Source: Amphibalanus amphitrite (taxonomy: Eukaryota; Arthropoda; Thecostraca; Balanomorpha; Balanidae). From it: 64,000 bases of DNA. Numbering within the stretch: position 1 is the first letter of the stretch; each line of letters begins with the position of its first letter. A program made the translations under genes and the position numbers. The stretch spans positions 372,001 to 436,000 of the forward strand of contig NW_024881530.1 of the NCBI RefSeq assembly GCF_019059575.1. Direction: 5' to 3'. The notes under the pieces were generated by a model that saw only the letters and a program-made list of their open reading frames with translations, was not told where the DNA came from and made no database searches. This document shows, one piece after another, positions 4,255 through 58,859 of this stretch.

Positions 4255-4627
4255 GCACTTCACTTAGTAAATTAAATGCTTGCGAATGTATGCTTTGAAT
4301 GGTGGAGCACAGCGATTTCAAGCTTTTCAATATACCTAATGAATCCCAACTAAAATTCCGATGCGAACTTGGAAGTGTAGAGGACGAGCCTTGAGATCGA
4401 ACTTATTTCCTGAGATAATTTGTGAGATAAGTAAGTTGTGAGATAAGATATAAGTTGTGAAGTGCAATTAAAATAGATTAAAAACCAATTCAATGAAATG
4501 AATAATCATTTTATAGCGCATTTAACCTTCAAGTCTATTCATTCTGAGAAGTGGAATGCTCGCGGCTCTGCGAGATCTCGCGTTGCATCTATGCAACAGT
4601 CTCTGGTAACTTCCTATCTTTTGGCAG
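4255..4627. other. Region upstream of the GPCR exon
   Basis: AT-rich sequence with no recognisable gene. It ends with a good splice acceptor, CTATCTTTTGGCAG at 4614-4627, which suggests that a 5' untranslated exon of the GPCR gene lies further upstream. That exon could not be located. Confidence 0.35.
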
Positions 4628-4657
4628 GAGTTCTGCTCGCCTTCTTTGCGTCCAGCC

Positions 4658-5914
4658 ATGGCTATGAACACAGACATCCGAACGAGCGCACAGCAGTTCC
4701 TGCGCTCGATGCTGAGTCGCATGAACCTGACTCTGGGCGACTGGTACGCCTACCGGAACTACTCAGGTCACCTGTTCGATGACCTGGATGACCTGGACGG
4801 GCCGGGCGGCCCCCAGCGCGCGGACGCCTGCGGTGATGGAATGCGCTGGCTGAGAGACTCCTACCGGCCCGTGCATGGCTACCTAGCTCTGGCTATCTGC
4901 CTGTTCGGCTTCGTGGCCAACGTGCTCAACATCGTGGTGTTGACGCGGAAGGAGATGAGATCGTCGACGAACGCGATCCTCACCGGACTGGCTGTGGCGG
5001 ATGGTTCCGTCATGCTCGAGTACATGCCGTTCGCAGTGCATAACTATGTGCGCGTCTCCTCCAACACATTCTCGTACTGGTCGGCGCGGTATGTGCTGTT
5101 CCACGCGCACTTTGCGCAGATCTTCCACACGGTGTCCATATTCATGACGGTAATGCTGGCCATGTGGCGATACTTGTTGATCGTGGAACCTAGCGCCGCG
5201 GTGCGACGCTGCACTGTGCGCCGCACAGTCGCCGTTATTGTCGCCGTGTACGCCATCTCGCCGCTTATCTGTGTGCCGTCCTACTTCACATTTTCCGTGC
5301 AGAGCCGGTCAGCCGGCGCGGGCGCAGAACCTCTCTACATCATCGACATCAGCGACATCGCGCGGCGGCACCACGGCCTGCTGAACCGGATGAACTTCTG
5401 GCTGTACTCGGTGCTCATCAAGCTGGCGCCGTGTCTGGCTCTGACGTACTTTTCTCTGCGGCTGATCGCCGTCCTTCTGGAAACCCGACGGAGGAAGAGA
5501 CGGCTGCTGGCGGCCGGCACATCGCCTGCCCCCAGAGGTAGGAACGTCACCAGCTCGCTAGCCCAGGGAGTGCGGCACACGGACCGCACCACCAGTCTGC
5601 TGGTGGTCGTCCTGCTGCTCTTTCTGCTGACCGAGCTGCCGCAGGCTGCGCTGGCCATGCTCTCAGGGGTTCTCCAGGAGCATTTCTTCCGCACCTGCTA
5701 CCAGCATGTCGGTGAGCTTCTCGACATCCTGGCGCTCACCAACTCGGCGGTAAACTTTGTGCTGTACTGTATGATGTGTAAGCAGTTCCGCGCCACCTTC
5801 TGGGCACTAATCGGCTGTCCACGTGACTGTCACCGGCCGCCGCAGCAGATACTGCTTAACAGTCACGTGATCAGCCTGCCAAAGCAGGTCGCTGTCAAAA
5901 CGACGCTCGTCTGA
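4658..5914 (+). CDS. MsR: Myosuppressin/FMRFamide-type neuropeptide GPCR
   Basis: A class A (rhodopsin-like) receptor of about 418 residues, predicted to sit in the plasma membrane and signal through G proteins on binding a FMRFamide-related peptide, most likely myosuppressin. Seven hydrophobic segments fall near residues 74-97, 106-128, 147-174, 189-209, 247-273, 313-337 and 354-376. N-glycosylation sequons (NLT, NYS) lie in the N-terminus. Features I recognise from arthropod myosuppressin receptors are GLAVADGSVMLEYMP in TM2, MWRYLLIVEP after TM3, LLLFLLTELPQ in TM6, and DILALTNSAVNFVLYC in TM7. The ATG at 4658 has good context (GCCATGG) and sits 30 bases after a splice acceptor at 4627. 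The frame is also open upstream from a TTG at 4646, which is not a likely start. The whole receptor is in one exon. The family is secure; the exact ligand is inferred. Confidence 0.88.
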   Translation: MAMNTDIRTSAQQFLRSMLSRMNLTLGDWYAYRNYSGHLFDDLDDLDGPGGPQRADACGDGMRWLRDSYRPVHGYLALAICLFGFVANVLNIVVLTRKEMRSSTNAILTGLAVADGSVMLEYMPFAVHNYVRVSSNTFSYWSARYVLFHAHFAQIFHTVSIFMTVMLAMWRYLLIVEPSAAVRRCTVRRTVAVIVAVYAISPLICVPSYFTFSVQSRSAGAGAEPLYIIDISDIARRHHGLLNRMNFWLYSVLIKLAPCLALTYFSLRLIAVLLETRRRKRRLLAAGTSPAPRGRNVTSSLAQGVRHTDRTTSLLVVVLLLFLLTELPQAALAMLSGVLQEHFFRTCYQHVGELLDILALTNSAVNFVLYCMMCKQFRATFWALIGCPRDCHRPPQQILLNSHVISLPKQVAVKTTLV

Positions 5915-17934: not shown

Positions 17935-18026
17935 ATGGCGAACCCCCAGCTGATGGTGCTGCTGCTCGTCTGCACCCTGCTGGCGACATCAGCCGGCCAG
18001 GGGCGGAATGACGCTTCAAGGAGGAG
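17935..18026 (+). CDS. Matrix gene exon 1: signal peptide
   Basis: ATG in the context CAGCATGG starts MANPQLMVLLLVCTLLATSA, a textbook signal peptide with likely cleavage after TSA. The exon ends at a strong donor, GAG|GTAAGT, leaving two bases of an Arg codon. Confidence 0.75.
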
Positions 18027-21000
18027 GTAAGTCGGCTACAGTTTGAATCTGGAGAGGCTGGGTCGCTGGATAAACGTCTTGCGAATCTCCCAGATCAGGC
18101 AGCATTACGGGCTCGCTAGATTTCTAACGTGCTTATTCGTTTCCCAATAATTAATTCCTCTGAATACATATTTTGGTATACACTTGAAAGTATGAACTAA
18201 AAAAGTGGCTAAAGACATATGTTTTGCACCACATGTTGATTGAATAAATAAAAAGTTATTAGATATAATTATTTCATATTTAAGATGTAACCCACGTTTC
18301 AACGCTATGTATTGATCTCAGGCAGCTTTTGCAAAATTATCAGAGAACTCAAATTTGTTTTTCAATCGAAAAACACAATTTTAACGAATAGTGTTCTACC
18401 GATTGACTAAAAACCTTTGGTTGTTTCATATCGGCCTTTTTATCATTAATTAAGCCTTAATCTTTTTACAACGCATCCTGTTCGGACAAAATAAAACCGA
18501 AGCAACACTCTGCCGAGTTCGATTGACGCATTGATGAAATTTTCTCCCTCAAACTCGCCATAAATTTCAGATTTAGCGATACGAATACCGTATCTTTTCA
18601 TTCTGTGTGATAGGCTGTACCACAACGATCGGCTGTAGTTCTTGATAAAACCATTGATGATAAATGTTTTTATTTCAGAGGAGATGCCAGTCCCACAGAT
18701 GGATCACCTCGCCCCACTCCACAACCCAGTAAGTACATAAAACTCTCTAATATTTGATATGTATTGCCAGTAATGCGTATGTACGAATGCGGTCAATAAG
18801 AAAGATACGTAGATGCTTGATACTTCGTACTCAATGCCTCCACTAACATACACCAGAAACTTCATCTATTTCCATTATCGATAACCCACTCAATGGACAT
18901 TTTGGTAGCAGGGGCGCACCCAGTCAAATAGTTTGGCGGCAGTAATATCGTATTCTTGACAGAGCGGATTTGGCAATGGCCTGTGCTCCACCAATGGAGA
19001 AATATTGGTTCGCTGCCAGGCCGTCGGATTTCCGCATATCTACTGAACGGTGAGCCCAATCCAAATCGAGGTATGCCGAGATCAGTGCTCGAAATTATTG
19101 TCCTCCATATATACTCATAAAGGAGACAGATATAGAATTATCGGAAGAGAGCGTCACTGGTCAGGCTCAATAAGGAATTATTGCTCTTTGATTCGGATTG
19201 CATGACGTCAAATGTAAAGATTAATGGAGACCGTATTTTTTACCTTATTTCTAATAATTACAAATGCCAGCACCCATAAGGAAGAAAAGAGACGTGACTA
19301 TATTGCTGAGAAATAGTACCTTCTGTCGATTTTCTACCGTTTGCTTCCCTTTCTCACGAGATTGCAGGCTGCAGCGCAGTGTACGATTGCACGGTTGCAA
19401 TAATGGAATGGTTGCATGACATTGGTGTATAAGCTCATGTTTCGTGCTCGTCTTACGTGCTTTTTCGCCTGTTGCGTGCTTCATTATCATTATTAGATGC
19501 CATAGTAACACATGCATGAAAGGGGTCACGTTTTGGAACTTTTCTAAAGTTCCCGTAACAGTTCCGTTTTTCTACAAAAAAAAAAACATTTTAGTTTGTG
19601 CCAACTGGTGAATGCTTTAAAGAAGAGCTTAAATAAGCTAGGCGTAAAAATTATTTGTTTTATACAAAGCCATCGAATATTATTTTCCAACATGCTCTGC
19701 AGATGTAACGCCAGGTATAGCTCAGCATTTCAATAAATTTCTCCACATGTTTGGAATGGCTTAGAACGTCATCCTAATGGTATTTGATGCGCAGTTAAAG
19801 GAAAAGGGCCACCTTCGTGAAATATGAAGATATCGTTGTTTTTCATTTTGACATTATTATTTTTCATTTTCTTTTTAAAACTGGTGCCAGAAGTGCACAA
19901 TTCGCGAAAAAGTATTTAAAACTATTTAACATATTGGTACTATGTTGATACTCTCTACGGCACCTACTGTATGATGGCATAGCGATGACGTCACACTCAA
20001 GCCAATCAGCGTTCAGAAGACAGACTCGTCGGATTGTGTCAGATAAGCTGATTGGTTAAAGCTGAGCTGGTTGGAGCTGATTGGTAAAAAACCAAAGCCT
20101 CGCCGCGGGTGGCTGTATTGTCGGATAAGAACGCATTCCTGGGATAAGGACGCATTCCTGGCGTATTTTCTTTTAAAATTGCCGATAACTACGAATGGAG
20201 GCCGAAATCGGCCGTAAGGAGGTAGACAGACAGGTTTTCGGACACGGGCTACAAGATGGCTATCTCAGTTTCAATCCCCATGTTAAAGGTGGCCCTTTTC
20301 CTTTAATATACATTAACATTTGACAAGCTAAATCGCTGAATTTTGATGGCTTGTTAAACATTAAATAAAAATGAATAAAATACATGGAATGGTGCACTCC
20401 AATTTCAGCAAGAAATCGCACACATTTTATCCCGCGCCCCAGTGGCGGTCTCGGCCAACTTCGCCCTAGTGGGGGGGGGGGGGGCATATGTTACCACCCA
20501 CCTCTAACTCAAAAACTAAGAGGGCTAGAAAGACGCGGTAAAAAGCAGTCGATAGCCCTCAATGCGTACGTTCGAAAGTATTTCGGTCATTTTTAACCTT
20601 AGAGCAATATTGGGGTCACCAGAGGTCATCAAAGGTCAAAGTTTGCCAATTGTCATTATATTTTTCAAAAAACATGCTGCTATCTCATGAACTATGGTAG
20701 CTAGAAAAACGCATGGAAAAGCAATCGATAGCTTTTGAACTCTTCTTTTGAAAAGGTCATTATCAATATTGACCTCAGGTCAACGGTTTAGCCTCCAGAG
20801 GGAAAAAACTCCAAAAATAGCTGTTTTTACGAAAAGTGTTTTTCGACAATAACTTTCGACTACAAAAAGCCACGAAACTTCTATTGCCAGAATCGTGCTC
20901 CCCTCGCCGAGACGCGTCGAATGAACTATAATTTGACCTTGAAAGGTCAACTTGAAAATTTGACCTCAGGTCAAGGTCATGACCTTACCGGAAAAGGTCA

Positions 21001-24000
21001 TGTTGCATATCAGTCGATGCGTCTCAACAAGACAAACACAATGAGACCATCCCCAGCGTTCTATCTCTGTCCAATCTCGAGTTGTTGGCAAAAAACTGTT
21101 TGTAGCCTCAAGTGACCTCGGATGACCTGTCTAGAGGCTATCAGCAAAAATGACACCTTGGTCATCACGAGTGGACTAAATCATTGTGATTCTGAAATAT
21201 TTGGACTGTTCCGATGCGTACACACGGATCTAGAGGCATTTTCATTTTTCTCCATTGACTTGTAATGGAAAGGTCACGCCACTGACCTGACCTTAGGTCA
21301 CGGATATAAAAAATCCGAGATATACAAATTGTAGGCGCCTATAACAGCATGCAATCCACCAAGTTTGAAACCTTTCTGACAAACACTGCAGGCTGGACAT
21401 GATTGCAAACTTTTTTTTAGGCTTGGTCAGTTAACTTGACCTGGTGACCTGACCTGACATGACCTGGGGTCAAAAATTTCACACATTATTCAAAATTGAT
21501 GTACCAAAAGCTACCCCAAGCGGCGCGGCGCTACGCGCTGCGGTTTTTTATTTACACGCAAAAAACGCGACAGGGTTGTAATATATGCCCCCCCCCACTG
21601 GGGCGAAGGTTAAAGAGACGTTTTAAATTTTGTGGCATTCACTTTCTTCTCTTATCCTATATCTACCTGTATCTTATGTTGAACTACAAGCCGCTGGCGA
21701 GTCCATCAAGCCGACGATATAGTCTTTGAACTAACTGGCTGTTGGCTGCACACGCTGTTTTCCTCTCCCGTTTCAGGTGCCGACGATGCCTTGTCTAGGT
21801 TCACTCGGCTGCTGACCAAGCCCATCGGCCTGCAGAAGAACAGCTCCTTCGGCGGCAGTGCCAGATCGCTGCTCGACGACGCGTGGAACAAACCGCTGCG
21901 TCGCCCCGAGAAACCCCCTGGAAACTCTACAGCCGGAGACCAGCAGCCGTCTGAGCCTGCCGACGGTGGAGAGCAGCAAAAGCCCTCCTCTCCACCCCCT
22001 ACCGAGGAACAGCGGCCTCCCACCTCCGCCCCTCAGCAGCCGACACGAGGGTACAGGCCGCCAGCCTCCTCGCGACCGCCGTACGGCCGAGATCAATATC
22101 CAGGGCAGCGGCAGTATCCAACACGCGAGTCCCCACGGCAGTACCCAGGACAAAACCGGGATTCAGAGCGAAATCGGTACCCAGGACAAAGTCGGTACCC
22201 AGGACAAAACCAGAATCCAAGACAAAATCGGTACCCAGGACAAAATCGGTACCCAGGACAAAATCGGTACCCGGGACAAAGTCGGTACCCAGGACAAAAC
22301 CAGAATCCAGGTCAAAATCGGTACCCGCCAGGCCAAAACCAGTACCCAGGCCAAAACCAGTATCCAGGACCGAATCGATATCCGGGACAAAACAGATATC
22401 CAGGTCAAAATCAGGGTCAAGAACAAAACCAGCGTCCAGAGCAGGATCAGTATCTTGGCAGTCAGTATCCCCCACGCCGAAATCCAACACCACAGTATCC
22501 AGTCGGTCGGTATCCAGAACAACAGCGAACTACAACAGAGCAGCCGTACCAACCACGCCAGTATCCAAATAATCAAAATGTGCGGCGTCAGACTCGAACG
22601 CAGGGCTATCACCGATACCGTCGGCCTGCGCAACGGCAAGACGAAGAGCAGCGTCGGAATTTCGTGACAACGAGAAGACCTAGACGATCCCAATCTCGGA
22701 CCACGACCAGAAGGCCGGCTCGTTTTCCGACGATAAAGCCAACTGTAGCTGGATTCAGACTGCGCACAAAGAGACCACAGTTCCTATCAATAACACGGCG
22801 CACGCCAAACTATCAGTTTCCTACAAGAAGACCACAGTTTCCAACTATTCCTCCAGGTCCGCCTAAGCCAAATATTCCAACAGAGCAGCCTCCAGAGCCG
22901 ACAACTCCCGCCGAAAAGTCTCCAGAGCCTCAGCCGCCACAGCCCCAACCTCCAACAGACCAGCAACCGCAGCCTACGAGTAGGTATCCAAGAGAACAGC
23001 GACCACAGGAGAGGTATCCAAGAGAGCCGCGACCACAACTCCAGCCCCCAACAGAGCAGCCTCGGTATCCATACCAGCAGCAGCCTCAGTCCCAGTATCC
23101 AACTGACCAGCAGCCTTCATATCCAACTGAACAACAGCCTCCGTATCCAACAGAGCAGCAGCCTTGGTATTTAAATCCTACAACAAAACGACCTCAACTT
23201 CAGTATCCATACCAGCGACAACCGCAACACCGATATCCAGCAGAACCACAGCCTCAGTATCCAACGACGCAACCGCCTCGATATCAATACCAGCAACCAG
23301 AATATCCATACCCAACAAACCAGCAGCCGCAGACACGGTATCCAACAACGCAACAGCCTCAGTATCCACCAAGACAGCAGCAACAGTCCCAATATCCATG
23401 GCAGCGACAACCACAAAACCGGTATCAAACAGAACGGCAACCACAGTCTCAGAGAAGCACACGGCAGCAGCCTTCGTATCCAACAGAGCAGCAGCCTTGG
23501 TATTCACCTCCAACCACACAACGACCTCAACCTCAGTATCCATACGACCATCAACAGCAGCCACGGTATCCAACAACGCAGCAGCCCCGGTATCAATACC
23601 AGCAACCACAAGACCAATACCCAACGAACCAGCCTCGGTATCCAACAGAGCAGCAGCCGCAGACCCGACATCCTCAGAGACAGTATCCTGAACAGACACA
23701 GAACCCCAGGCGGAGACCAGAAACGCCCCAGAGACGGTATCCAACGCCAGATGAGCGGGCAAGCCGGCCTCAGAATCCCACAGAGAATCCATACAGACGT
23801 TCTCCGCAGAGGCAGCGGCCCGCAGAACCAGAAAAGCCCTCGACTACTGCTAGAACGACTCAGGAGCCTGAAGACGGCAGGAATTCGCTCTCTATAATTG
23901 ATAAACTGTATGCACAGAGAGGACTGCAATCCTCTGGTTCAGGCAGAAGCAGCTTTCCGTCTCTAGACTCAGGCAATCTGGGCAATGCGACCACCACACG

Positions 24001-27000
24001 TCGAACGTCTGTGAGCAGGCAAAGCAGCGGCGGTGGCAGCAGCATCTCGTCAGCGGGTTCTTCTCCGTCAGTTGGAGACACCTCTCCGTTATCTGGAGAC
24101 ACCTCTCCGCTATCTGGAGACGAGCCGCCGACGGGCACACCGCGCGGAGAGGAGGCTGGTCCGGCGGGGGCCAGAGACGGGTCAGGGCAGGGCGATGGTA
24201 GAGGCAGAGGACCGTGGGTCAGAGACAGGAGTGTCTCCACGACAACTCGTCGGCCCTCGCTCTTCAGTAGCTTCCGGTTCCCTTCGGACAGAAACAGCGG
24301 CTTCTTCTACCGTAGGAGATCGCCGCTAGTTGCCACTGGCGCCTCGAACGCCGGCAAAAAGGATCGCAACGGCACGTTCGTCGGCTCACGAGGGGACCCG
24401 TAAGTAGATGTGGCTAATCTAGGGTGGTTAGATGTGACTTATTATTATCTAAATGTGGCTTATCTAACTACATATTTGGAAAATAAGGTTTTCTTAATGC
24501 GAATCGGCATCCATTCAGATGGCATTAGCTTGTTTTGCCTGAACGGTAGACAATTGAAATGCTTCTGTAATGTTTCCAGTGAACGCATTAATGACACACG
24601 GCTTTCGCGGCATCAGTCATGTCAGATCGATGCAGGCATTTTGCTATAAAAAGTTAGGCATTGGCCGTTAGGTTCCGACAGGTTTTTACCATCCTCTATA
24701 TCCGAATGTTATACCCGGTTGGGCATTCAATTTTTGACATTTTTTTAGTTTCAATTGATAGCTAATTATGTTAGGCTTGGACTGGCTTTACAGTGCATTT
24801 GCTTTACACCAAAGCATCATTTGGCGTGACTGTCATTTGGGTGTGACTGCACGAAATGTTCAAAATAAACAGAAGTTTCATGAAATGGGTTTGTTTGAAA
24901 TCAATCAAAAAGGTATGACGAGCCTTCAACATCACTATTTCTGTCGTAGGTAAATGAAGTTCACATTTGAGACCCTGTGTAACGCTGACCAACCGGACCA
25001 CAGTGGTTTTCATTTTTATTTGTGACGTGAGGAGAATGTTATTTTTAATAGTTATTATAAGATTTTGAACTTTCTGTAAAACTCCTTTGATCGCGTATAA
25101 GCTACATATAGATCAAAATATGCGGCGTTCTAATGTCGTAAGTGACACTGCAGTGGCGGTCGCAGGGGGGGGGCATCAGGGCCATGGCCCCCCCCAAGGC
25201 AAATCAGGGGGGGCCATCATATCATTTGGCCCCCCCCCAAACAACCGATGGGCCCCCATGGCCGTATGGGGCCCTGGCCCGTATTCGATTGTCACGAGGC
25301 TCGAGAAACCCACGCCAGCTATTAACAGCTCCCATACCAGTCTTTGAGGGTCCTACACTGACGTCGGAGGGCCCTTCAGTGGTGGTCAAGCGTCCACATT
25401 GACCGCTGAGGACCCAAATTGACCTCTGAGGGCCCTCCACTGGCCTTTGAGGGCCCCTAAACCGGTCTCAGGGGCCCAACCGGCGTCTGAGAGCCTCATT
25501 CCGGCCTCTGATGGCCTCATTTCTGTCTCTCGAGTCCCAAGACCAGCCTTTAAGTGTCTCTGAGGGCCCGCACTGGATTCTGAAGACCCGATGTTGGTCT
25601 CTAAGAGCCCGCATCGGCCTCTGGGGGCCCCATCTTGGCCTTTGAGGGCCCTCCGCTGGTCTCTGGGGTCCAATGCCGGCCCGTGCCGGCCTTTTAGGGC
25701 CCAAAACTGACTTCTAAGGGCCCATGCTGGCCTGTAAGGACCCACATTAGCCTCTGAGGGCCCCCCGCACTGGATTCTGAAGACCCAATGCCGGCCGCTC
25801 AGGGCCCGCATCGGCCTCTGAGGGCCCATCTTGACTTTTGAGGGCCCTCTACTGGCCTCTGGGGTATAACGCCGGCAAATGCCAGTCTTTTAGGGTCCCA
25901 TTCTGACCTTTGAGGGCCCCATGCTGGCCTGTAAGGGCCCACATTAGCCTCTGAGGGCCCCCGCACTGGATTGTGAAGACACGATGCCGGCCTCTAAGGG
26001 TTAGCATCGGCTTCTGAGGACCCATCTTGGCCTTTGAGGGCCTTCTGTTGGCCTCTGGGGTCCAACGCCGGCCCATGCCGGTCTTTTAGGGCCCCACACT
26101 GACCTCTGACAGCTCGTGCTGGCCTGTAAGTACCCACCTTAGCCTCTGAGGACCCCGCACGAGCTTCTAAAGACCCGATGCCGGTCTGTAAGGGCCCGCA
26201 TCGGCCTCTGAGGGCCTATCTTGGCCTTTAAGGGCCCTCTACTGGCCTCTGGGGTCCAACGCCGGCCCATGCCGGTCTTTTAGGGCACCACGCTAACCTC
26301 TGAGGGCTCCATGCTGGCCTGTAAGGACCCACATTTGCCTCTGATTGCCGAATTCGGTCTCTGATGGTCTAAAACTGCCTTTTGCAGGCCCTGTACTGGT
26401 CTCTGAGGGCCCTAAACTGGCCCCTAAGGGCCCAAACCAGCCTAGGTCCCACACCGGCCTCTGATGATCCCATTTCTGTCTCTGCGACCCAAACTGACCC
26501 TGTGCCTCTGAGGGCCCCGTACTGGCTTCTGAAGGATCGATGCCGGCTTCTGAGGACCCATAACAGTCTTTAAGTGTCTCATGCCGACACCTCAGGCCCC
26601 ACACTAGCCTCTGAGGGGCCCCAAACTGGCCTATGAGGTCTCTACACCGGCCACTGATGGCCGTATTATGTTCTCTGGGGGGCTCAAGCCTTACCTTCGG
26701 GGGTCACGCACTTGCCTCTGAAGGCCCACATCAGCCTCTGGGGTCCCACCTGGGGCCTTTGAGACCATTCGCTGACCCTTGGGTCCAACGCCGGCCTCTG
26801 TGGGGTCTGACACCGTACTCTAAGGGCCCCATTGCAGCCTCTAGGCGATAGGTATCGCCTAAGCGCTATCGATGGGCCCATAAGTGTAGGAACCATGGGT
26901 GCAGTGGGCGCAGTTGCACCAAACACAATTCTGCAGTGGGTGCAGACAATGTATTCTGCATCCACAATAATCTAGAACAAAAACCCCTTTTCTCAGCAAC

Positions 27001-30000
27001 ACTACTTTCCATGCAGCACGACAAATTTAGGATATTTTGCCCACTATCCATCTTTCGAAGCATTTGATACTGTAATGGTCTTCAAAATTTACATTTGTGC
27101 CCAGTAAAAAAAGAGAGAAGATGAAACGGAACACATGTGATTTAACAGTGAACAGATACCGAGGACCCACTGTCAAAAGTTTTAGCACGATGATCTTAGA
27201 AAATAGCAAAGTTAGCCGCCTAAGCCGCCTTTACTTTTGCGGTAGTCCATTCACAGTTGCGTGAATTATAGACAATATCAATAATTCAAAATGCACTTAT
27301 CGGTACCTTTTCGACATTGTACACCCTCAAAGCTCGCAATGAGCCTCCGCTCGGGTGCCGCTCCCTACCCCCCCCCCCCCGCTTCACCGGTCATGGCCTG
27401 GATTTCTGTACCCGTGCACTACGCCCGTGGGCCCTTTTGAGCTAGCACCGGGCCCCCCGGGTCAGCGCAGGGGCCCCTTTGCCAAGTTGGCCCCCCCCCA
27501 AACTCCAAGTCTGCGACCGCCCCTGAGTGACAGCAATGGTCTTGACGGCAATGACACTTCACATTCGCACTAAGCAAATACCAGAGTGTTTCTTCGGCGA
27601 AGCGAGGGACTGTAAAAAGTTCATCGTTTTACAAAGATTATTTCATTTTCAGTAGGTGAGCAATATCATTGCTTTGTCTGGCGCCTGCTGTTTCGGGCCC
27701 CGGGGGTGAAAGCGCCGTCATTAGAGACAGCACTGTCTACGTTTTCAATACCAGAAGCCTAAGGCTGCTTCAAAGTTCTGGCGAAGACGCAGCAAGTCGG
27801 ATGGAGATACTCGTTGCGGTACCATCGAGCCTCGAGATAATATATTATGATACGGCGAATAGTGGTTAACAGATATTAAAATGTGAAGAATAGAATAAGC
27901 GTTTATTACGAAACCTAGTAAGTAATCGTTTTTGTTTCGGGTGTCCATGAAAATAATGTCCACTTAATTCTGTCAGAAGCCATAGCCATAGAGTACCTAT
28001 TGATAACATATGTAGTTACATTGAGTTTGCTTTATGCCGTGGATCTGAAGCGCAGCAGAAAAAAAAACTAATAACCACTTCTATAACTACTTCTTATCGG
28101 GCAAACACTTTTTCGTTCTAAACGGCTGTTAATTAAGTATCACATCACAATCACCTGCACGATTACCCAGTACCCACATCAATCACGATTCGATATCATT
28201 CGGTGCGCTTACTTCACATACTCGCATTGCCAGTGGAAAATGAAATAACCTACCATGAAACGACCATGAGATGCCAGTTTGCCTCAAACGTTGAGCTTTT
28301 CGTGAAGAGGAAGACCTGTTACATCGGTTAAGCTGCGTATGATATAGGTGGTGGGTCTCGAGGCAAGAGGTTCGTTTTGGGCCGTTTTTTGTGATATCTT
28401 TTTGATATTTTGAAGAAGGGTAATCCAATCCACTAAGCTGTTTTAAAGTCGTCTCATTAGATGTGTTGCTAGGGTGGCACGTTTAACAGTGCGTTGAATG
28501 AAGATTTGCATTTCCTTCATGAGCCTAGATATTGAATGATCACCGATTCGCATTAAAAACACGATACTCACTGCACTATTTTTGTCAGTTTTATAGCCAG
28601 TAGGAGTGCAACGAAACGTCTACTGGCTATTCCGTGATATCCAGTTTAAGAATTAACCTTACACATATCAAGCCACCTAAATTGTTTACATCTGCGCATA
28701 TAAGATACCTATCTAATTATTTAACAACATGCATAAAGCAGAAGCCACAGAACACAACCTTTTGTGCGACTCAGTAAGAACGTATGCGTGGAGCGGCGTA
28801 ACTTCACGCGCGAGGTGGGCGGTAGCAGGGGCTCGGGCCGCGCGAGCTCCAGCGGCTCCTCGTGTTCCTCGGCGTCCGGCACGCGGGTCTGCGTCTCGAC
28901 CAGCATCGTCAACGGCGTGGCCACCATCACCGAGAGCATCAGCCGCTGCTGTCCCGGCACCGCGGCCAAGGCAAACGGCTGCGTCAAGGTCAGGATGACT
29001 AAGTGTAGAAGCGCGTTTTAGAGCAGAGAGAATGTATAGTTACTGTTAATCTTGTTAAGCCTGCGTATTTTCCTGGAAATGAGATAGGTCCCGTTTGACG
29101 ACCTAATGCTTTGTAGCTCTTATGTGATCAACATTTATTAAAATATTTGTATTTACAGTAAAGGAGTTATCATGCAGTAACTTTTCATGTACGGACAAAT
29201 TTATTACGATGTCGTGGCAACCAAGACTGCGGCAACATTAGTGGCAACTGCGTGCATTCTTTGTTCTATCAGATTGCGGTCAAGAAAGCCCCGGAGAAGC
29301 TGCAGGATTTGGAATCGTTTGCGTTCCTGCAGCTGCTCAGAAGGGCTGGAATGAGTGACATGCTGGACGGAAAGTACACGATATTTGTTCCGGCAGACCC
29401 CGCTGTTCAGAAGCTTCTGCGGTCTCATCTTGTGAGTAAGCGGGCCAACAGTTTTGGGCACCCAAAGTGTACGGCCTGTCAGGGCCGTACGGCCTGTCAG
29501 GGAACTCATATGTGCCCTTCTTTAATGTGTGCGACGGGCTGCCAGACAGCTGCTCTTTGGGGCGGTCATGTAGAGAGCTTCTGCGGAATTACGCTGGACA
29601 TAAATGGGCCGTAAAACAGTTTCTACAGATCTATCCCAAGTATACGAGGCGACAGAAAGCTCCTGTTCGTCCATCCTATGATAATCTGTCATGCTGTCGT
29701 GCTAAGAGGTACCACGGCATAGACATACATCCTTATATGCCCGTCTGCATACATCCACAAACTTTGACATACATTTATGTAACCTGTGATGATACCGAGA
29801 ACTCACTGTCAGGAAAATGTCACACATGCAGACATGGGGACATTCAGTTAGAGGATGTTGGACAATGCTACTTGAAAGGCTTCTCTGCTGGTCACCACTT
29901 TATTTGAGGCTTTGGAAATAATTTCACTTTGATCGATGTTATTAGCGGCACACTACCTCAAACCCTGTCTGGGGCATATAGACCCAGACCTGAACCTCTG

Positions 30001-33000
30001 AGGCTTGAGTTGCAAGCAGGAAAAAATATATCAAGGCTGGGAAAGGCCTAAAACGTTCCGCCATCCGATCTGTTATGTTCGTTAATGGAAGTCTCAGTCC
30101 AGCATTATTTGTCCTCTCTTTCAGTATTTGGAGCATTCTCCAGAAATCCGTCGTATCCTCGGAGGGCACATTGTCGACGGCATTCTCCCGGTGTCTCAGC
30201 TGACGTCACAGGTGGGTCGATTCTAATAATGCAGAAGTCAATGGAGTTGAATGGCGCAAACATGACATCCTTTTATTGATGGTGATTATTTTAGGTGTTC
30301 TCATGGGTTAAAGTTGAATTAACGTCTATTGCCATCAGCCTTAATTTGGGTTAAGCTGTCTACTCCAGAAAGGACTATTTAAGCTTGTTCCTAAATGGTC
30401 ATTGTCTTTTAAGTTATTAATCGATTTAGGCCTCACTCGAGTATTTTGTCAATTATTGACCTTTCATAGTCCGCACAGGTCACCAGGGAGCGGAACGACC
30501 CTTAGTAGAGCCTGTCGCCCCAAAGGTCGAGGTCACAGTGGTTCACTCACTGACCGTACCCCACCCCCAGACGCCAGTGATGACCCGCGCGGGCCCACTG
30601 TGGGTCACCCGGGGTCACAGAGGTCTCCTGGCGAACTGCGAGCCCCTCCTGTCACGTGACCGGCCCACGCCCGGAGGAGGGGTCATCCACACAGTGGAAG
30701 GAGTGCTCCACTCCGACCGTCGGTCACTGGTACAGGTCGTCAGGGACAGGCCGGAACTCAGCACACTGGCGCAGAGTGAGTTATGTAAATGGTTGTATAT
30801 ATGGGGTTATATAATAGGGGATTTCTTTCTGCTCATTCTGTCATGAGCTACTCACAATATTCAATGCGATATTACTTACACGCCTCACAGCGTGTCAACG
30901 CTGTAAACGTGATGATGGGTGCTGCCCCGCTCTTTAAGTGATTTTTATTAGAATTATACTCTTAACTAAAAAAAAAAATCATGAGCCATGACCATTTACC
31001 AAGCTACATGGCCAAAGTAGCGATGTGTACTTCAAATATTTATTGGGCTGTGGTCACCTTACATTATTTTGTTTACTTACAATATAGAATATGCGTGCCG
31101 TCAAATATCGCATTATGTCCATGAATTATGAATTAGCTCAATATGAACGCACTCTGAATTATGAGCTAACCTATTTCTATTTTGGAAGTTTCTGGACTTA
31201 GAATTCCGAAAAAATCATAATCTACGCAGAATTAAGCGTGCTTTAAGAATCTGAAGAGAGCTGAGCTCTAAGTGCAACCGTTCTGCTTAAACTTAGAAAA
31301 TAAACAGAAAAAGACCGTTTTATGTACTTGAAGATGATAAAAAAGACCGATTTATGTATTACATATAACGGTCCTGACAAATTCACTTCCGTCATTTCTC
31401 GGTCCTTTTTGGGCCTTTTTTACCCAACTTTGACCTGACCTAGCTCTTAAGTTTTAAGACTTAGGTCAGTTTTTCTTTTACGAACGTTAAGAGTGGACAA
31501 TTCCCTACCACCTAATACCCCGCAATTTTAATTTATACCAAACATAACGCTTTTAGAGCGTTTTGAAGATAGGTCTACCAGGACCGTTTAATGTACAAAT
31601 CGATAATACATTTTCTAACAAGACCGGGTCATGGATTAGAAGCTAACCAATGTGAATTTACATAGTTCACTTGATAATGGAAAATGGGCACATAACGGAC
31701 AATAAACGTAGTTTTCCGAAAGTTGATGTCGAATTGAAGGTAATTCCAAAGCAAAACCATTCAGCTCGACGAAATATGTCATATTATTCTACCCTCATAA
31801 TGTAAAGCAACTAACGAATCTAGCTATTGTGGTCGGATTATATGCACACGCTGTGATGTGGGATATCAATATGACAGTCTAGAGCTGCTTTGATACAGCT
31901 TTGCCAGATGAGATGAACGTATACACCTTTTGTTCTCTGTACTCAATGAAGACAATCCGACATGACAGCGCCATCAACCCTGTGCCTGACAGGCTTACCT
32001 TTCTATACACGAACCGAAAGTCGGTGTTATCAGATACGTCATGAAAGCAACGGCATGTTTACCTGATACGGCCGCGAGATTAGGGTTTCCGACGATGATA
32101 TTGTTGCCTTCTGGGTATATATTGAGTTCGCTGGGACGGCCGGGCTGGCGTCAATACACTGCTTTATGACGCAGTAGCCGGCACATCCGCCTACCGTAGT
32201 CCGTGGTGACGGGTGTGAGCGTCATTCAAACCAGCCAGGCCCCGGGATGGGCGTTTGTTTGTGTGCTTATGATTGAGAGACTGGGGAAAATAAGATAAAG
32301 AGGGGGGGCGTCTTTTATCTCGGGAAGGAGACAAAAACGAAATAGTGGTTTAGCTTTATTTCCATAAGTTAAAACACATTTTGGAGTCTCCCTCGACGCT
32401 CAACTTCCAATCCGGCACCCTATCAATATTCATTTAGGATTTCTATCGTCAATATTTTTGTACCTGTCCCGGAAAGCGGCGTGTTGTCTTATCTGGATTT
32501 CCGTTCGACGTCAGCGATACTCCACCCGGACGCCATACTGGGTTTGCTGACATTTGGCTTCAGTAAGCCGACCGTTATCCGCATGCCGGGAACATATCGC
32601 GGAAAGTGAGTTGCATCTATAGTTTACGGAATTGATTCCAGATTGAACTTTGAAATCATATCGGAGAAACTCTATAGCCGCTATATGATGCATGACCCCA
32701 GAATACTTTTATGGAACATGACAAAACCATTTTACAGTGCTGGTCGAGACGGGTCTTGCCGATGAACTAGACCGCCGCAGGTCGCTGACACTGTTTGCTC
32801 CAACGAACGAGGCGTTTGAGAAAATCCAGTTGCCAGAGGATGCCTACATGAGAAAAGGTTTGTATAATTCCGCAACACTACCGCCCTGCTCTGCCCCCAT
32901 GCATTGCCATGTGCACAATAAAATATTTGCATTCCACGATGCCTCAGATATGCACTGCACTGCTGCATACGGTGGTGTTGCATTTCTTCCGGTACTGGTA

Positions 33001-36000
33001 ATATGTTTGTGTGCTAGGCTTGGCCATTGTTCAAGATCAGTCTTTCGAGCTTCTTCACATCCATGTACTGTTTGTTATGGTCCATCCACGTGTCTGTATC
33101 GCCCACAGAGATCCTGCGCTCCCATATTCTGAGCGGCTTGCAGTGCCGGGCCGGTCTGCCGGGCGGGGGCACGGACGGCCGCGGCCGGCCTACGCTCCTG
33201 TTTGCTGACGGCTCCCGGGGTGTGACGGTGGTACCCCGACTGCAGGAAGCATCGAGTACCGTCCAACTGGCAGGTCCCGGTCTGATCACCGCTACTGGCC
33301 TGCTGCAGACGGTCACACAGGTCATCATGCCGCCGTTTGGTGAGGGATGCTGCTATATCTCACTGCCGTATCATGGATATATAAGAGATAATGAGATACC
33401 GCCCCCGGTCGATCGATGTTTCACACCAGCGAGCGAGCCATGCTGTCTCTCGGGGATTTAGATAATAGGTTTACTGCTGCATGACAATGGCTTCCCGAAT
33501 CAAACAACTTGTTGAATTGATGCAGAATTATACAGTGACCGGGAAGGCACGAAGCTTAAGTGACAAGCGAACAGATGTCTGAATGTTGATTCAACCTGTC
33601 TACGACCGTTCTTCGTAGACTGAATGTACGACCGACCGTTCTTCAGCCGTGGCCACACTGACCACCCTCCGACGTCTGGAGGACTCTGCCAGGTTCGCCC
33701 ATCTCCTGGCCAACGCTGGGCTATCCGATCAGGCCAACGGAGAAAACGTGACTTTGCTGGTGCCACCGTCAAAGGAGCTATCCGGCCTCCCTGACACGGT
33801 AAAACGTCGATTTTAGTGTTTATTGTAGTCACAGACGGTCGAAACGAATGCTTTCCGGCAACTTATGTAAGGAGTGCTTTCTCTCTGTTATGTAAGGCTT
33901 TCTCTCGCTCTAATTTTACTTTTGAATGAGCCTTCTGGACGTTAAGCTTCAATGTGAGGATGAAAGGAGCACTGCGATTGTTGAACTGCTTTTGAGATAT
34001 ATTCGACAATTGTCTGGATAGAATTTAGCTATTCAGGTTATAACCTCAGTTCGACGTAATTTCTGTGTTCTTTTGAAAAGGTCATGTTATATAAAAGAGT
34101 TACTTGACTGATATTTCTTATGATATAATGCTACTATTAAACTCAAAAATAAAGAATTATGAAGGACGTCGTAGTTCCATTTTGCGACAAGCAGGATATA
34201 TTTACATTGATGAAGTTGGTGAAAGCTTTTGTTCGTTCCACATAAGTTAGGTAAGCCTCTGAGCGCTGCTTTGTTACGATAGTTCTGGTGCTGGTACTGT
34301 GATGCTCACTCGTCTCTCCTCTCCTCTCCCCAGAGTCGCGGCCGTCTGCGTTCGCTGCTCTCCCCCCACCTCCTCTCCGGCTCCGGGCTGCGGCCGGAGC
34401 CGGGCGGTGCTCTCTGGGCACAACCCCTCTCCGGCGGCCGACCGCTCCTGGTCACAGCCCCCTCCCCGGGACCAGCGGCCGACCAGCCGCCGCTGGTCCA
34501 GTGCTCGGCCGTGCTGGGCCAGCTGGATCTCGATAAGCCAGCGGTGGATGTGCTGGGGATCGGCCAGGTGCTGACCCCGCCGGCAGCCGACCTGCTGACG
34601 GCACTTAATAGCCGACCGGAGCTGTCCAACTTTGCCAGAGCTGTGCAGGTCAGTGGGTCGGTCTGTCCTTCTGAAATTCTCAGTATGAATGAATCTCATT
34701 ACAGCTGTTAGAATTTACGAGATCTGTGCAAATCACAAGTAGTACTGCGCCCGCCCACATCGTTCACGGCTGCCTCGGTCAGCTGCTATACGCGATATTT
34801 CTGCAAGCGACACGACATCCGCCTGAGTCGCGTTCAACTAAGAATATGCGGCGTTAATTGTCCCTTGACCCTTAAGAGCTGTTACGTGAGCTTGAAGCGT
34901 CAAGGACATCCAATGTATCCATATTCATAATCAATGTAATGCATTGTCCAGCCCAATGTCTCTCAAGGGGAAAGTATCCTACTTTAGAGCTGATATTTGA
35001 CAACAGGAGAGAGACTAGTTTGAATCACTGCAGCGCCTATTATTTTTCTCTACGGGGATGAAATACGGTTATTGTCAGTCGTCGCGCCATACGGACAGAA
35101 ATGATCGGTGAAGTGGGTCTCGTCAGGTGCCTGACTAAGTAAATACAACAGTGTTGCCCTTAGTTCTGTAGCATATTCTGCAATTATACTGAAGACTTTG
35201 TATCGGCTCGTTAGCCAAGGCAATAAGCAAAGGGCGCCTAGCCATCCCTTGGCGTATTTAAGATAAACCCAGCCATTGGCAGTATCATATCAAATAAGCT
35301 TGATAGTTGAAATTGAATACATTGAGGAGGGAAGGAGGAGGCCTATGTGCGATCAGCAAGGGTACGAGGTAGAGCATAACGCAGTAGCAAACTCAATTTC
35401 AGATTAGATCGCATTGATATTGCGGCGTAATATTTACTATAATGCATATTCCATATTCATCACCAACCCGCACATCACAAGCGTCGAAATCTTTCCCTGA
35501 ATACTTTGATGGCTGCTACCTGAGCTTCTAAGACTCCCGGGATCTAGTGGGCTTCAATGTGCGCTTTAGAATTCCTTCCGAACACCCCACAAGGCTTCTG
35601 AAAATCGACGGGGCTCAACAGCTTTCCGATTCCGAGAAAGTATCGTTTGTGGCTTATTCTCGGGAAGAATGGCATGCTGCTCGTAGGCAAATGAGTTTTC
35701 GCTGAGCTATATTTCGAGAAATTACTCATCTTACAGCCGCAGGCATTTCCATCAGTGGTCGTATTCTGGAGCTCACTCGGCCGTCGGGTTAGACAAGCAC
35801 AATGGAATTCTCATCAGCCAGGATAGCACAAAACAATGTATTATGTGGTTTGTGGTGAAGAACGACAAGCGGCATTCGAGAGCCAGTTACAAAATCTATC
35901 GACAGTCTTCCGACCAGTGCAGTGTTTCGGTTAGGTCAGCGCTGAGACAACCTTTCGTCTAATCGAGATCGAGACACGCTTTATTTAGCCGCAGTCATGG

Positions 36001-37597
36001 AGCACATTCATTAGGAGCTACTTCAGAGACATTCTTCAGATTCATGCTTCAGAGACATCTGCCGGCGGGAGCAGGAACTTTGTGCTATGCGGTGCAGCAT
36101 AGTTCAGGCGCTAACACCTAGAGACATCTTGTGGCCGGTATAAGAAACTGCCGAGGTCTGCGGTGCAGCATCTATCAGGCGCTAACCTTCAGAGCCATCT
36201 GTTGGCTGATGCACAAACTGCTGGCTGAAGAACGCGGTGACTACTGACAATGAGTGAATGCAGTTATATGCTATTCAATATCATGATAAGCTGCACATTC
36301 AGTTTGGTTTGTTTCTGTTCTAACTCTTTTCCTACTTTTTGTGTAATAAATAATATGCTGGTTCGCCAGGATATTTGGTCATGTTTAGTGAACGTCTGCA
36401 TATGTCTTGTGACAGCGGATCATAGCCAGTTGTGTGCAAAGTGGCTTCTGTTTTGCCCTTTCCGATGATAAAGTATGTTTTTTTTTAAGATGCGCAACTA
36501 GCTGCAGCTCTAGGCTGACACGTTCGACAGGATGGCAGGAGCACATGCCAGCGTGACACTGCAATCAATCAATCTGGAACCAGCACGTATGTAACCACCA
36601 GCGAAGCACGTGCTGCAGTAACTGCGTCCATCCATCCCCTGACCGCTGACTCGGCAGTCTGTCCGTCCTAATGCCGGACCCTTTCTGTCCGACTGAGGTC
36701 GTGTACTCTCTGCTCTCAGCTCTCCGGTCTGGCTGACGTCCTGGGTTCCGGTCTGTCCGACGAGCTAAGGGAGGGAGATCTTCTCACACTACTGGCTCCT
36801 GTCAACCCGGCTCTGGTGGACATCAGTTACCTTGATACGACGCAAAAAGCGGCCGACTTTGTGCGCGTCCATCTCATTCGCGGTAAGTGGACGCAGTGGT
36901 GCGACTAACACGCTTTTCCTCGGCAATATACATAATTAATGTGTCTTAACTGGAAAATAATGTACGCAGAAAAGTATGGCGTAGGCGTATTCTGAATATG
37001 AAAAATGGATTTGTCTGACTGTGCTTGCCGTACATTGGCGTGTTTACACTGACATGTTATGTTTGTCTTAGCAATTACCTGATGCATGCTTTAGGGAGAC
37101 AATGAATTGCTAGTAATATCATTATCTGACAAATTAATGCATCGTCAACATTAGGTCTTGATGCAAGTAACCCGTACTTTATGCCTCCAGACGCCATTTG
37201 CTGCGGCGGTACAAATCCGTTAAGCTATCTGCATTTATGTATATGTATGACCCCTTACATAACTACTTCCTTGGGTGACTTCTTACATGTTAGTATGAAC
37301 CTGTATTTTCTGCTCTCAGGTGCCGTCTGCTGCGGCGGTATGAACCCCTACCTAACCCCATACCGTCGGCTGGACGGTGGCCGTCTCTTGATGGCCAGTT
37401 CGTCCGACGGCGGGGCCACGGTGCTTCCTTTGGACACGCTGGCCACGGGGGCGGTGGATACAGTCTCCTGTGACCTGGTGACCTCCAATGGGGTGCTGCA
37501 CACGCTGCGCCGACCTCTGGAGGGGCCGGGAGCCGATACGGACCCGCTCTCTGATGTTTCTGAGCTACAGTTGTCGCTATTTATGCCCGCTGTCTGA
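17935..37597 (+). CDS. Secreted matrix protein: YP-rich repeats, RGD, EMI-like segment and four FAS1 domains (13 exons)
   Basis: Predicted extracellular protein of about 1590 residues joined from 13 exons in one continuous phase: 17935-18026, 18679-18728, 21777-24399, 28775-28988, 29273-29431, 30125-30211, ~30487-30775, 32738-32857, 33109-33339, 33647-33798, 34334-34648, 36720-36882, 37320-37597. Order of parts: signal peptide (1-20); RGD (31-33); Pro/Gln/Tyr/Arg repeats with RYPGQN-type units (about 150-270) and QYPTEQQP-type units (about 440-690); Ser-rich SGDTSPL copies; a second RGD (919-921); an EMI-like Cys segment (922-993); four FAS1 domains (about 994-1145, 1150-1288, 1289-1420, 1422-1560). 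EMI plus four FAS1 is the plan of TGFBI/periostin, which bind collagen and integrins. The giant YP repeat is not part of that family and resembles adhesive or cuticle-type proteins. The domain calls are sound; adhesive function is inference. Confidence 0.8.
18679..18728 (+). CDS. Matrix gene exon 2: short linker with RGD
   Basis: A 50-base exon between a TTTTTATTTCAG acceptor and a GTAAGT donor. Joined to exon 1 it reads RGDASPTDGSPRPTPQP, so an integrin-type RGD is created at the splice junction. Phases fit on both sides. Confidence 0.65.
19795..20306. mobile_element. TTAA-flanked MITE, 512 bp
   Basis: TTAA at 19795-19798 and 20303-20306 encloses inverted ends AGGAAAAGGGCCACCTT and AAGGTGGCCCTTTTCCT. 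Target-site choice suggests piggyBac-type mobilisation. The interior is non-coding. Confidence 0.7.
20455..21613. mobile_element. AGGTCA-rich MITE-like element (most complete copy in window)
   Basis: The ends are inverted: CAACTTCGCCCTAGTGGGG followed by a long G-run and CATATGTTA on the left, and TATATGCCCC, a C-run, then CACTGGGGCGAAGGTTAA on the right. TTAA at the right edge appears decayed to CCAA on the left. The interior contains at least a dozen AGGTCA/TGACCT hexamers, several as tandem GACCTGACCTGACATGACC (near 21440-21470). Related copies lie at 41.8-42.2 kb and 63.3-64.0 kb. No transposase is present. Confidence 0.6.
21777..24399 (+). CDS. Matrix gene exon 3: giant Pro/Tyr/Gln repeat exon
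   Basis: A 2623-base exon encoding about 874 residues. It opens after CCCGTTTCAG with SADDALSRFTRLL, then Pro-rich linker, about twenty RYPGQN/QNQYPGQ units (DNA period 18 bp, 22090-22450), a basic Arg/Thr-rich part (22590-22850), and YPTEQQP/RYPTTQQPQ units (22960-23700). It closes with a Ser-rich SGDTSPL duplication and GSRGDP. Tyr and Arg alternate with Pro and Gln throughout, and there is almost no Cys. Tyr in such contexts is a classical substrate for hydroxylation to DOPA in other adhesive proteins; whether that happens here is inference. Confidence 0.8.
25151..27525. mobile_element. hAT-like non-autonomous element filled with minisatellite
   Basis: The ends match CAGTGGCGGTCGCAG on the left and CAGGGGCGGTCGCAG (complement) on the right, the CAGxGGCGG start seen in many hAT elements. 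The flanks AGTGACAC (25141-25148) and AGTGACAG (27526-27533) agree at 7 of 8 bases, like an 8-bp target duplication, although three bases (TG plus one) intervene on the left. No transposase is present; the interior is tandem repeat and GC-rich filler. Confidence 0.6.
25330..26860 (-). repeat. Higher-order minisatellite: ~28-bp units in ~196-bp blocks
   Basis: Units of 27-29 bp follow a GGGCCC-xxx-TGGCCTCTGA pattern. A block of about seven units is itself repeated: the landmark GCACTGGATTCTGAAGAC starts at 25570, 25767 and 25963, and a variant at 26157, giving spacings of 197, 196 and 194. Open frames here, mostly on the minus strand, follow the repeat and are not genes. Confidence 0.8.
28775..28988 (+). 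CDS. Matrix gene exon 4: EMI-like cysteine segment
   Basis: Begins with KNVCVERRNFTREVGG and ends RCCPGTAAKANGCVK before a GTCAGG donor. The CCPG followed by a spaced GC resembles the end of the EMI domain that precedes the FAS1 domains in TGFBI and periostin. Its middle is Ser/Gly-rich, with SSSGSSCSSASG. Phase joins exon 3 through a Pro codon and exon 5 at a codon boundary. Confidence 0.7.
29273..29431 (+). CDS. Matrix gene exon 5: FAS1 domain 1, first part
   Basis: After TTTGTTCTATCAG the frame reads FAFLQLLRRAGMSDML and then YTIFVPADPAVQKL, the FAS1 start with its YTxFxPxxxAxxxL signature (H1 box). It ends at CTT|GTGAGT, phase 0. Confidence 0.75.
29440..29907 (+). other. Cys-rich open frame inside intron 5
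   Basis: An open stretch of about 155 codons, TAA at 29437 to TGA at 29905, on the sense strand of the intron. Its first part repeats YGLSGPYGLSGN, followed by VCDGLPDSCSLGRSCRELL and then ten or so further Cys. The C-x-C-x-C spacing loosely recalls a GDNF-receptor/GAS1 module. It does not splice in phase into the FAS1 domain, whose halves join perfectly without it. It may be a cryptic exon or chance. Confidence 0.2.
30125..30211 (+). CDS. Matrix gene exon 6: FAS1 domain 1, middle
   Basis: TCTTTCAG acceptor, then YLEHSPEIRRILGGHIVDG, the FAS1 L-xx-HI segment, and a GTGGGT donor. The 29 codons are in phase with both neighbours. Confidence 0.75.
30487..30775 (+). CDS. Matrix gene exon 7: end of FAS1 domain 1, start of domain 2
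   Basis: Contains GGGVIHTVEGVL, the FAS1 NGVxHxIDxVL (H2) box, then RPELSTLAQ opening domain 2. The donor is CAGA|GTGAGT. The 5' limit is uncertain: the frame is open back to about 30440, and in-phase acceptors end at 30486 (used here) or 30525. The more obvious AG at 30478 would break the frame. Confidence 0.6.
30776..32737 (+). other. Intron 7, nothing recognised
   Basis: A 2-kb AT-rich intron. Variants of AAGACCGxTTTATGTA recur near 31310-31380 and 31580-31625, hinting at an old repeat, but no element ends were found. Confidence 0.4.
32738..32857 (+). CDS. Matrix gene exon 8: FAS1 domain 2, H1 box
   Basis: CATTTTACAG acceptor, then LVETGLADELDRRRSLTLFA and APTNEAFEKIQLP. This is the clearest FAS1 signature in the gene. 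Donor G|GTTTGT. Confidence 0.8.
33109..33339 (+). CDS. Matrix gene exon 9: FAS1 domain 2, C-terminal part
   Basis: Acceptor TATCGCCCACAG; starts EILRSHILSGLQC and ends GLLQTVTQVIMPPF before a GTGAGG donor. It carries the domain's L-xxHI and terminal hydrophobic strand. In place of the usual NGVxHxID it has a diverged TATGLLQTVTQVI. Confidence 0.75.
33647..33798 (+). CDS. Matrix gene exon 10: FAS1 domain 3, first part
   Basis: CGTTCTTCAG acceptor, then SARFAHLLANAGLSDQ and VTLLVPPSKELSGLP, a diverged H1 box (VTLLVPPSKEL where the family has FTVFAPTDEAF). The donor is ACG|GTAAAA, phase 0. Confidence 0.7.
34334..34648 (+). CDS. Matrix gene exon 11: FAS1 domain 3 end, domain 4 start
   Basis: CTCTCCCCAG acceptor. 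The 105 codons run from LRSLLSPHLLSG through VDVLGIGQVLTPP and into SRPELSNFARAVQ, the opening helix of domain 4. Donor CAG|GTCAGT. It is strongly GC-rich, unlike the flanking introns. Confidence 0.75.
34649..36719 (+). other. Intron 11, nothing recognised
   Basis: A 2-kb intron ending in ACTCTCTGCTCTCAG. It contains a local direct repeat (GAGACATCT, CTGCCG/GGTGCAGCAT, CAGGCGCTAAC near 36050-36190), probably a short duplicated segment. No gene is seen. Confidence 0.4.
36720..36882 (+). CDS. Matrix gene exon 12: FAS1 domain 4, H1 box
   Basis: Starts LSGLADVLGSGLSDELREGD, then LLTLLAPVNPALVDI, a diverged H1 box, and ends FVRVHLIRG at a GTAAGT donor (phase 1). This follows directly from the last codon of exon 11. 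Confidence 0.75.
37191..37319 (+). other. In-frame alternative 5' extension of the last exon, with duplicated exon start
   Basis: An upstream acceptor (TTTATGCCTCCAG, ending 37190) would add 43 codons in the same frame without a stop. Its first codons (AICCGGTNP) are almost the same as the normal exon start (AVCCGGMNP), so a piece of the exon start seems to have been duplicated into the intron. It could be an alternative exon or a silent relic. Confidence 0.4.
37320..37597 (+). CDS. Matrix gene exon 13: FAS1 domain 4 end and C-terminus
   Basis: TTTTCTGCTCTCAG acceptor, then GAVCCGGMNPYLTPYRRL and TSNGVLHTLRRPLEG, the FAS1 NGVxH box, ending in a short tail and TGA at 37595-37597. It supplies the only Cys pair in the FAS1 region of this domain. 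Confidence 0.75.
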
Positions 37598-37724: not shown

Positions 37725-37730
37725 AATAAA
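37725..37730 (+). terminator. Polyadenylation signal AATAAA of the matrix gene
   Basis: A canonical AATAAA lies 128 bases after the stop codon in AT-rich sequence, consistent with a short 3' untranslated region. Confidence 0.55.
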
Positions 37731-58142: not shown

Positions 58143-58859
58143 CTGCAGGGGCGAGGGGAGAGAGAACGTTAGAACAGGTGGACGGAGAGACAATCAAAGA
58201 GTCAGAGTCAAAGAGGGGACGGAGGGCCAAGGGTCCTTCAAATACAGTACAGGGAACGAGCGCCAAGGGATTGTCAAAAAGAGTAAAAAAAAAAAGGTAA
58301 AAGGGCACGGACGGGATGGTCGTCAGAGTTATGGACAAGTGCGGAGCGACCGAAAGTTTCAAAAAGAACGAAGACAGACAGAATATAATAAGGAGACCGT
58401 CAAAGGGGGAATCGAGACTCAAGACAGTTTCAGAGGAAGGTGAATCAGCACCATGCGGTTAGAAACTAGGAATGGAAAGCATGATGTGGATTTACAAGAA
58501 GTATACAAGTGAGTGAAAGGTTAATGCGTTATATAACGGTGAGAAAAGATAAGTGGTGACATCAGCCTCTTGTATGAACATTTGTTAGAAAAGAGCTGCT
58601 ACTCCATGGCCTGTTCATCCTATGTTCCCGTTTCATCATTTTAAAAATATTTACAGCCACTACTCCGTTTGCCGAAAGTATGCCCCGTGGTTTCTTTTCA
58701 TGTCACGGATTAACGTCACGGAAATCCCAGAAAAGACGTGCTGGGACTCTTCCCACTGAACGGTTGTGCGAGTTATACGGATTAGAGCACTGAGCTGGTG
58801 ACATTTGAGCGGGGTCGGTGACCTGACCTGCTGTCTAACCGTGCGCAAATGTTATCGCT
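58143..58859 (-). other. Start of grh 5' intron, nothing recognised
   Basis: Begins with the polypyrimidine tract of the 58142 acceptor on the minus strand. The rest is mixed sequence without repeats or exons. Confidence 0.4.

Follow-up and report, generated by a model that had tools for sequence, protein, structure and literature searches.

Does a single barnacle gene join a long Tyr/Pro-rich repeat region to a set of FAS1 domains, and, if it does, what kind of protein would that be? The question is raised by a 64-kb stretch of Amphibalanus amphitrite DNA (contig C33:372001-436000, hereafter the window, whose numbering is used below wherever no contig is named), in which the original prediction had placed 13 exons that join in phase and encode about 1590 residues. 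The splice model that we built independently coincides exactly with it: a plus-strand gene at 17935-37597 with 13 exons, encoding 1590 residues with a single stop, at the end. All 12 introns are of the GT-AG type and of compatible phase, and the joined reading frame of 4773 bases has no inner stop. Of the 12 donors, ten agree with the consensus at 7 or more of 9 positions; among the 1123 GT dinucleotides in 17-38 kb, 33 do as well. The observation of one gene model carrying both the YP repeats and the FAS1 domains is confirmed.

In our opinion, the gene probably encodes a secreted matrix protein: a diverged paralogue on the TGFBI/periostin/Mfas plan that carries long Tyr/Pro/Gln repeats, disordered and of positive charge, in its N-terminal part. 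The protein most likely serves as a linker. Indeed, the N terminus is hydrophobic (best 11-residue Kyte-Doolittle mean 3.17), no membrane anchor is apparent on reading, and the C terminus ends DVSELQLSLFMPAV. From these features we infer that the product is secreted; a location in the matrix is proposed.

Four FAS1 domains had been claimed for the C-terminal half, and a profile search bears this out: Pfam PF02469 is detected there in four stretches, with a value of 4.8e-36 when the four domains are scored together. Scored singly, domains 1 to 4 give 3.9e-10, 1.1e-12, 0.041 and 1.9e-8. The closest solved relatives of this half are TGFBI (2.1e-22) and periostin (1.2e-21), and two inter-domain cysteines, Cys 1126 and Cys 1224, fall on TGFBI cysteines in the alignment; in TGFBI those two form a disulfide. 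Exon 4, just upstream, has six cysteines in the TGFBI order (C..C-x8-C..CC..C), with equal x8 spacing and a CCPG motif. This pattern, which was defined after inspection, is reached by 141 of 400000 shuffles, and only one of those also has CCPG.

How close, then, is the gene to TGFBI itself? We searched the assembly (807,550,619 bases in 2644 contigs; such genome searches score only the best candidates) with PF02469 and obtained 15 matches at E <=1e-3 on nine contigs besides that of the window. Two of these contigs, C704 and C1291, carry a gene with FAS1 exons and a TGFBI-type EMI domain, 71 residues of which align with TGFBI free of gaps (8.7e-18). Because that gene has a clear TGFBI-type EMI, the Mfas/TGFBI orthologue is not the window gene, which, judged from sequence, is a diverged paralogue of the family. 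The TGFBI/periostin plan that had been proposed for the C-terminal half stands as far as the four FAS1 domains are concerned, while the closer relative of TGFBI lies elsewhere in the genome. The likely orthologue of Drosophila Mfas is the C704/C1291 gene, with the window gene a further paralogue. The N-terminal repeat half was described as an addition to the plan, and this also seems right: no long low-complexity exon is found in the 30 kb examined upstream of the C704 gene, the nearest TGFBI-type gene of the genome.

The added half is almost entirely exon 3. Its composition is Pro 18.1%, Gln 15.8%, Arg 12.8%, Tyr 6.8% and Lys 1.6%, with no Cys, and it is net positive (K+R 14.4% versus D+E 7.6%). 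The dipeptide YP occurs 39 times, against 10.6 (standard deviation 2.9) expected from 2000 shuffles. Pfam recognises no family in the N-terminal 922 residues and only EMI and FAS1 in the remainder; no chitin-binding or cuticle domain was recognised in the Pfam search of the whole protein. Is exon 3 translated at all? Its frame is the only one open across the full 2.6 kb, and in the 18-bp array at 22141-22412 adjacent units differ in 18 of 85 comparisons at the first codon position, 19 of 84 at the second and 34 of 85 at the third. This third-position drift speaks for translation in that frame. A 24-bp block at 23071-23790 leans the same way, only faintly, with 111, 131 and 140 of 232 differences at the three positions. 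A chance open frame was considered and rejected, given 2.7 kb and a phase that fits on both sides; coding on the other strand or in another frame was rejected too, since only shorter frames exist there. Contamination was likewise dismissed, as this is a spliced gene within a 64-kb window holding other animal-type genes.

The rival explanation that survives best is that we are looking at two transcription units, with exons 1-3 making a stand-alone secreted YP-repeat protein and exons 4-13 belonging to another FAS1 gene or its remnant. Read-through of the exon 3 donor meets an in-frame TAA immediately (24401; the frame closes at 24403), what may be a poly(A) signal follows at 24864, intron 3 is 4.4 kb long and rich in repeats, and codon usage is unlike between exon 3 and exons 4-13. 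However, the phase of exons 3 and 4 fits and the donor matches at 7 of 9 positions. A scan of 24401-28774 finds no one-exon alternative start (an ATG, a hydrophobic stretch and a GTRRG donor in phase) for the FAS1 half. Moreover, three other genes of this genome (C73, C450 and C1301) have a low-complexity region and FAS1 in one open frame, and C73 has its signal peptide, repeats and FAS1 start together, which makes the join in the window gene more believable. We therefore regard two units as unlikely; the gene model suggests that the junction of exons 3 and 4 is, with high probability, correct. The immediate stop and the poly(A) signal do make it possible that a short isoform ends after exon 3 and lacks FAS1.

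These other genes deserve description. C450:350227-354336 holds a low-complexity frame of 1370 codons that runs into a FAS1-like helix, and C1301:91464-96146 does likewise with 1561 codons; manual joining of their FAS1 pieces gives 1.8e-41 and 4.3e-38, respectively, and a Cys-pattern search finds no EMI near either. On C73:472563-473834 (minus strand) a single exon, closed by a good donor, encodes a signal peptide together with repeats of the YGPP/GYPG type and the first helices of FAS1. The tails differ in make: acidic and P/S/E/T-rich in C450, S/P/T/H-rich in C1301, Gly-rich with YGPP/GYPG in C73. A VRNY.. motif is repeated in the C450 tail and common to C1301, but no tail-to-tail similarity of weight was detected (window exon 3 versus C450 and C1301, best E 1.1; C450 versus C1301, best E 0.031).

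Two of these tails can be compared with a second copy. C450 and its copy on C625 share 88% amino-acid identity over 1336 codons, with a synonymous divergence (dS) of 0.162, a nonsynonymous divergence (dN) of 0.064 and a ratio of 0.39; the gaps ahead of the presumed exon end are all multiples of three, and one two-base gap lies beyond it. C73 and its copy on C174 give, over 398 codons, dS 0.057, dN 0.012 and a ratio of 0.21, with gaps of 21 and 4 residues. Both comparisons show the tails to be under purifying coding constraint between the two copies. The coding case for the C1301 tail is weaker: the 5.3 kb of C829, the sole place searched for a partner, gave no match to the long frame and no FAS1-helix motif. 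The paired FAS1 contigs fit an excess in assembly size: a table in PMC10454600 lists 808 Mb for A. amphitrite GCA_019059575.1, with 481 Mb in the last of its size columns.

For the window gene itself no second copy was found in these best-candidate searches. A query of 620 bases taken from the end of exon 3 has a single match, one of 668 residues from the C-terminal half has 10 (E <=1e-3), all inside the window, and no haplotype partner for a dN/dS estimate was found in the assembly. A search for other YPGQ genes gave 22 further weak matches (the best 150 of 335 candidates being scored); the two of the 22 that we inspected, on C160 and C724, lack any frame with at least three YP and were taken as low-complexity noise. 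Overall, four of the six FAS1 gene groups seen in the PF02469 search have long tails, C704/C1291 having none in the part examined and C23 having FAS1 exons in a partly resolved structure; the genome thus holds at least four tailed FAS1 genes, two of them with Tyr-Pro-type repeats.

What could the protein do? We picture the FAS1 half as docking into, or assembling with, extracellular matrix that lies close to epithelial cells, and the repeat half as extending into cuticle or attachment matrix; the regularly spaced tyrosines might be cross-linked by oxidases. The cross-linking chemistry and the tissue are guesses. It is tempting to go further and to propose that barnacles repeatedly fused FAS1 docking modules to long, fast-changing, disordered tails, creating a family of polymers, anchored to cells and capable of being cross-linked, by which the living base or epidermis is held to hardened cuticle, shell or cement. 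We offer this as a tentative idea only, one that may well prove wrong.

A different function, that of an underwater adhesive of the cement gland or base relying on 3,4-dihydroxyphenylalanine (DOPA), had been hinted at by the Tyr-Pro repeats. Mussel-type DOPA adhesive proteins have repeats rich in both Tyr and Lys. Exon 3 does offer tyrosines spaced in YP repeats and a net positive charge, but Lys is scarce, the basic residues being Arg, so that at 6.8 percent Tyr and 1.6 percent Lys it fails to match the mussel type. Two of the three other tails are, in addition, Tyr-poor (3.0 and 2.2 percent), and hence Tyr-Pro is not a common trait of the tails. PMC8371367 reports fasciclins, peroxidases and lysyl oxidases from barnacle adhesive proteomes, which fits the linker reading, the fasciclins counting in favour of a DOPA glue as well; it also calls barnacle adhesion distinct from systems relying on DOPA. 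Given the few lysines, this distinction and an RGD count near chance (below), we favour a linker, and consider a DOPA adhesive quite unlikely. That the gene is a decaying Mfas/TGFBI-family paralogue, a pseudogene in progress, is very unlikely: a degenerate EMI, a weak third FAS1 domain and a partial copy of the start of exon 13 (37174-37211; 38 bases of its intron/exon border, 76%, 4.3e-5, ahead of the true one and possibly a decayed exon duplicate) would agree with it, but the long open frame, the 12 intact GT-AG introns and the third-position drift in the 18-bp array do not.

Several observations weigh against a secreted matrix protein with the repeat-EMI-FAS1 architecture, and they should be taken together. 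The gene model is built from genomic DNA, and the comparisons are within one genome. The third FAS1 domain alone scores 14.5 bits, below the curated cut-off of 22. The EMI-like segment that had been predicted fares worse: Pfam EMI scores it at 13.9 bits, where the cut-off is 25, and exon 4 alone, run by phmmer against PDB, matches neither TGFBI nor periostin. The low score by itself is no disproof, because the Pfam model failed as well on the C704 gene, whose EMI is beyond doubt; with the cysteine order retained and the profile match below the cut-off, exon 4 is best called a degenerate, EMI-like segment, and it is the weakest part of the claimed architecture. The G+C content at third positions is 0.494 in exon 3, which is more A/T-ending, and 0.719 in exons 4-13. 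The tripeptide RGD occurs twice (residues 31 and 919), and 548 of 5000 protein shuffles reach or exceed that number, so it carries little weight. With RGD at this level and the EMI segment degenerate, the integrin or collagen binding suggested by the original prediction finds no support here. Finally, the A. amphitrite adhesive fasciclin has one FAS1 domain and the Pollicipes one four, according to PMC8371367; with its single domain, the former is not obviously the window protein.

Compared with known proteins, the predicted product shares with TGFBI and periostin a predicted signal peptide, an EMI/CROPT-like cysteine segment, the four FAS1 domains, the apparent lack of a membrane anchor and the two aligned inter-domain cysteines. 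It differs in the 874-residue repeat exon, the diverged EMI and the position of its RGDs ahead of the EMI segment; TGFBI has an RGD near its C terminus. Within the genome, C450/C625, C1301/C829 and C73/C174 resemble it in having a long low-complexity frame 5' of FAS1, but their tails are of other make and lie with FAS1 in one frame, not in separate exons. Drosophila Mfas, as described in PMC6032426, is likewise secreted, with four FAS1 domains and CROPT. The same paper describes an extensive Pro/Ala/Ser/Thr-rich N-terminal region in Volvox algal-CAM, which, like the plant fasciclin-like arabinogalactan proteins, joins a proline-rich flexible region to FAS1. By analogy these may be the nearest design, although they belong to another kingdom, have another repeat and bear glycans. 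No barnacle or crustacean FAS1 protein with such a tail was recognised in our literature search, which covered papers only and so does not establish novelty. The FAS1 half follows a familiar pattern; neither the long Tyr/Pro tail nor the recurrence of differing tails across the FAS1 genes of one genome was met in the literature searched.

To our knowledge, little is understood of how living barnacle tissue stays attached to the hardened cuticle and the glue. The tailed FAS1 genes provide named candidates for cuticle or attachment proteins, and an animal parallel to the plant fasciclin-like proteins that combine FAS1 with proline-rich regions.

Table 1. Exons and sequence features of the YP-repeat/FAS1 gene model (window coordinates)
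Feature	Position	Strand	Content and basis
Exon 1	17935..18026	+	Start codon and predicted signal peptide, ~aa 1-20, MANPQLMVLLLVCTLLATSA; splice model
Exon 2	18679..18728	+	RGD, aa 31-33, across exon 1/2 junction; splice model
Exon 3	21777..24399	+	874 residues, repeat-rich; splice model, Pfam, composition
YPGQ(N) repeat block	22097..22411	+	11 YPGQ, aa 155-259; period-18 tandem array at 22141-22412
YPTEQQP-type block	23096..23869	+	Majority of YPT motifs, aa 488-745; period-24 arrays
Second RGD	24389..24397	+	aa 919-921, immediately ahead of EMI-like segment
Exon 4	28775..28988	+	EMI/CROPT-like segment; six cysteines ordered as in TGFBI
Exon 5	29273..29431	+	FAS1-1, first part
Exon 6	30125..30211	+	FAS1-1
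Exon 7	30487..30775	+	FAS1-1 end (to ~30720), FAS1-2 start; Cys 1126 on Cys of TGFBI NCARLL
Exon 8	32738..32857	+	FAS1-2
Exon 9	33109..33339	+	FAS1-2; Cys 1224 on Cys of TGFBI KSAMCAEA
Exon 10	33647..33798	+	FAS1-3, weakest domain (14.5 bits alone)
Exon 11	34334..34648	+	FAS1-3 end (to ~34585), FAS1-4 start
Exon 12	36720..36882	+	FAS1-4
Exon 13	37320..37597	+	FAS1-4 end, stop codon; AATAAA/ATTAAA at 37725

Two intron stretches, 25151-27525 and 20426-21619, are flanked by inverted repeats (15 nt at 93%, and 24-32 nt at 81-92%, respectively), and the first contains a minisatellite of period 196; both are likely mobile-element insertions. On C450, an open frame at 370013-371797 (minus strand) appears by eye to encode a CUB domain and a trypsin-like serine protease.

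Elsewhere in the window, an open frame at 4610-5908 (plus strand) encodes a rhodopsin-class G-protein-coupled receptor (Pfam Srw 4.5e-32, 7tm_1 1.3e-23). An exon at 52357-52608 (minus strand) matches the CP2 transcription-factor family (8.8e-8), and we take it to be grainyhead-like. At 57320-58165 (minus strand), a 282-residue open frame rich in Tyr, Ser and Ala, with no Pfam family, may belong to this CP2-matching gene.

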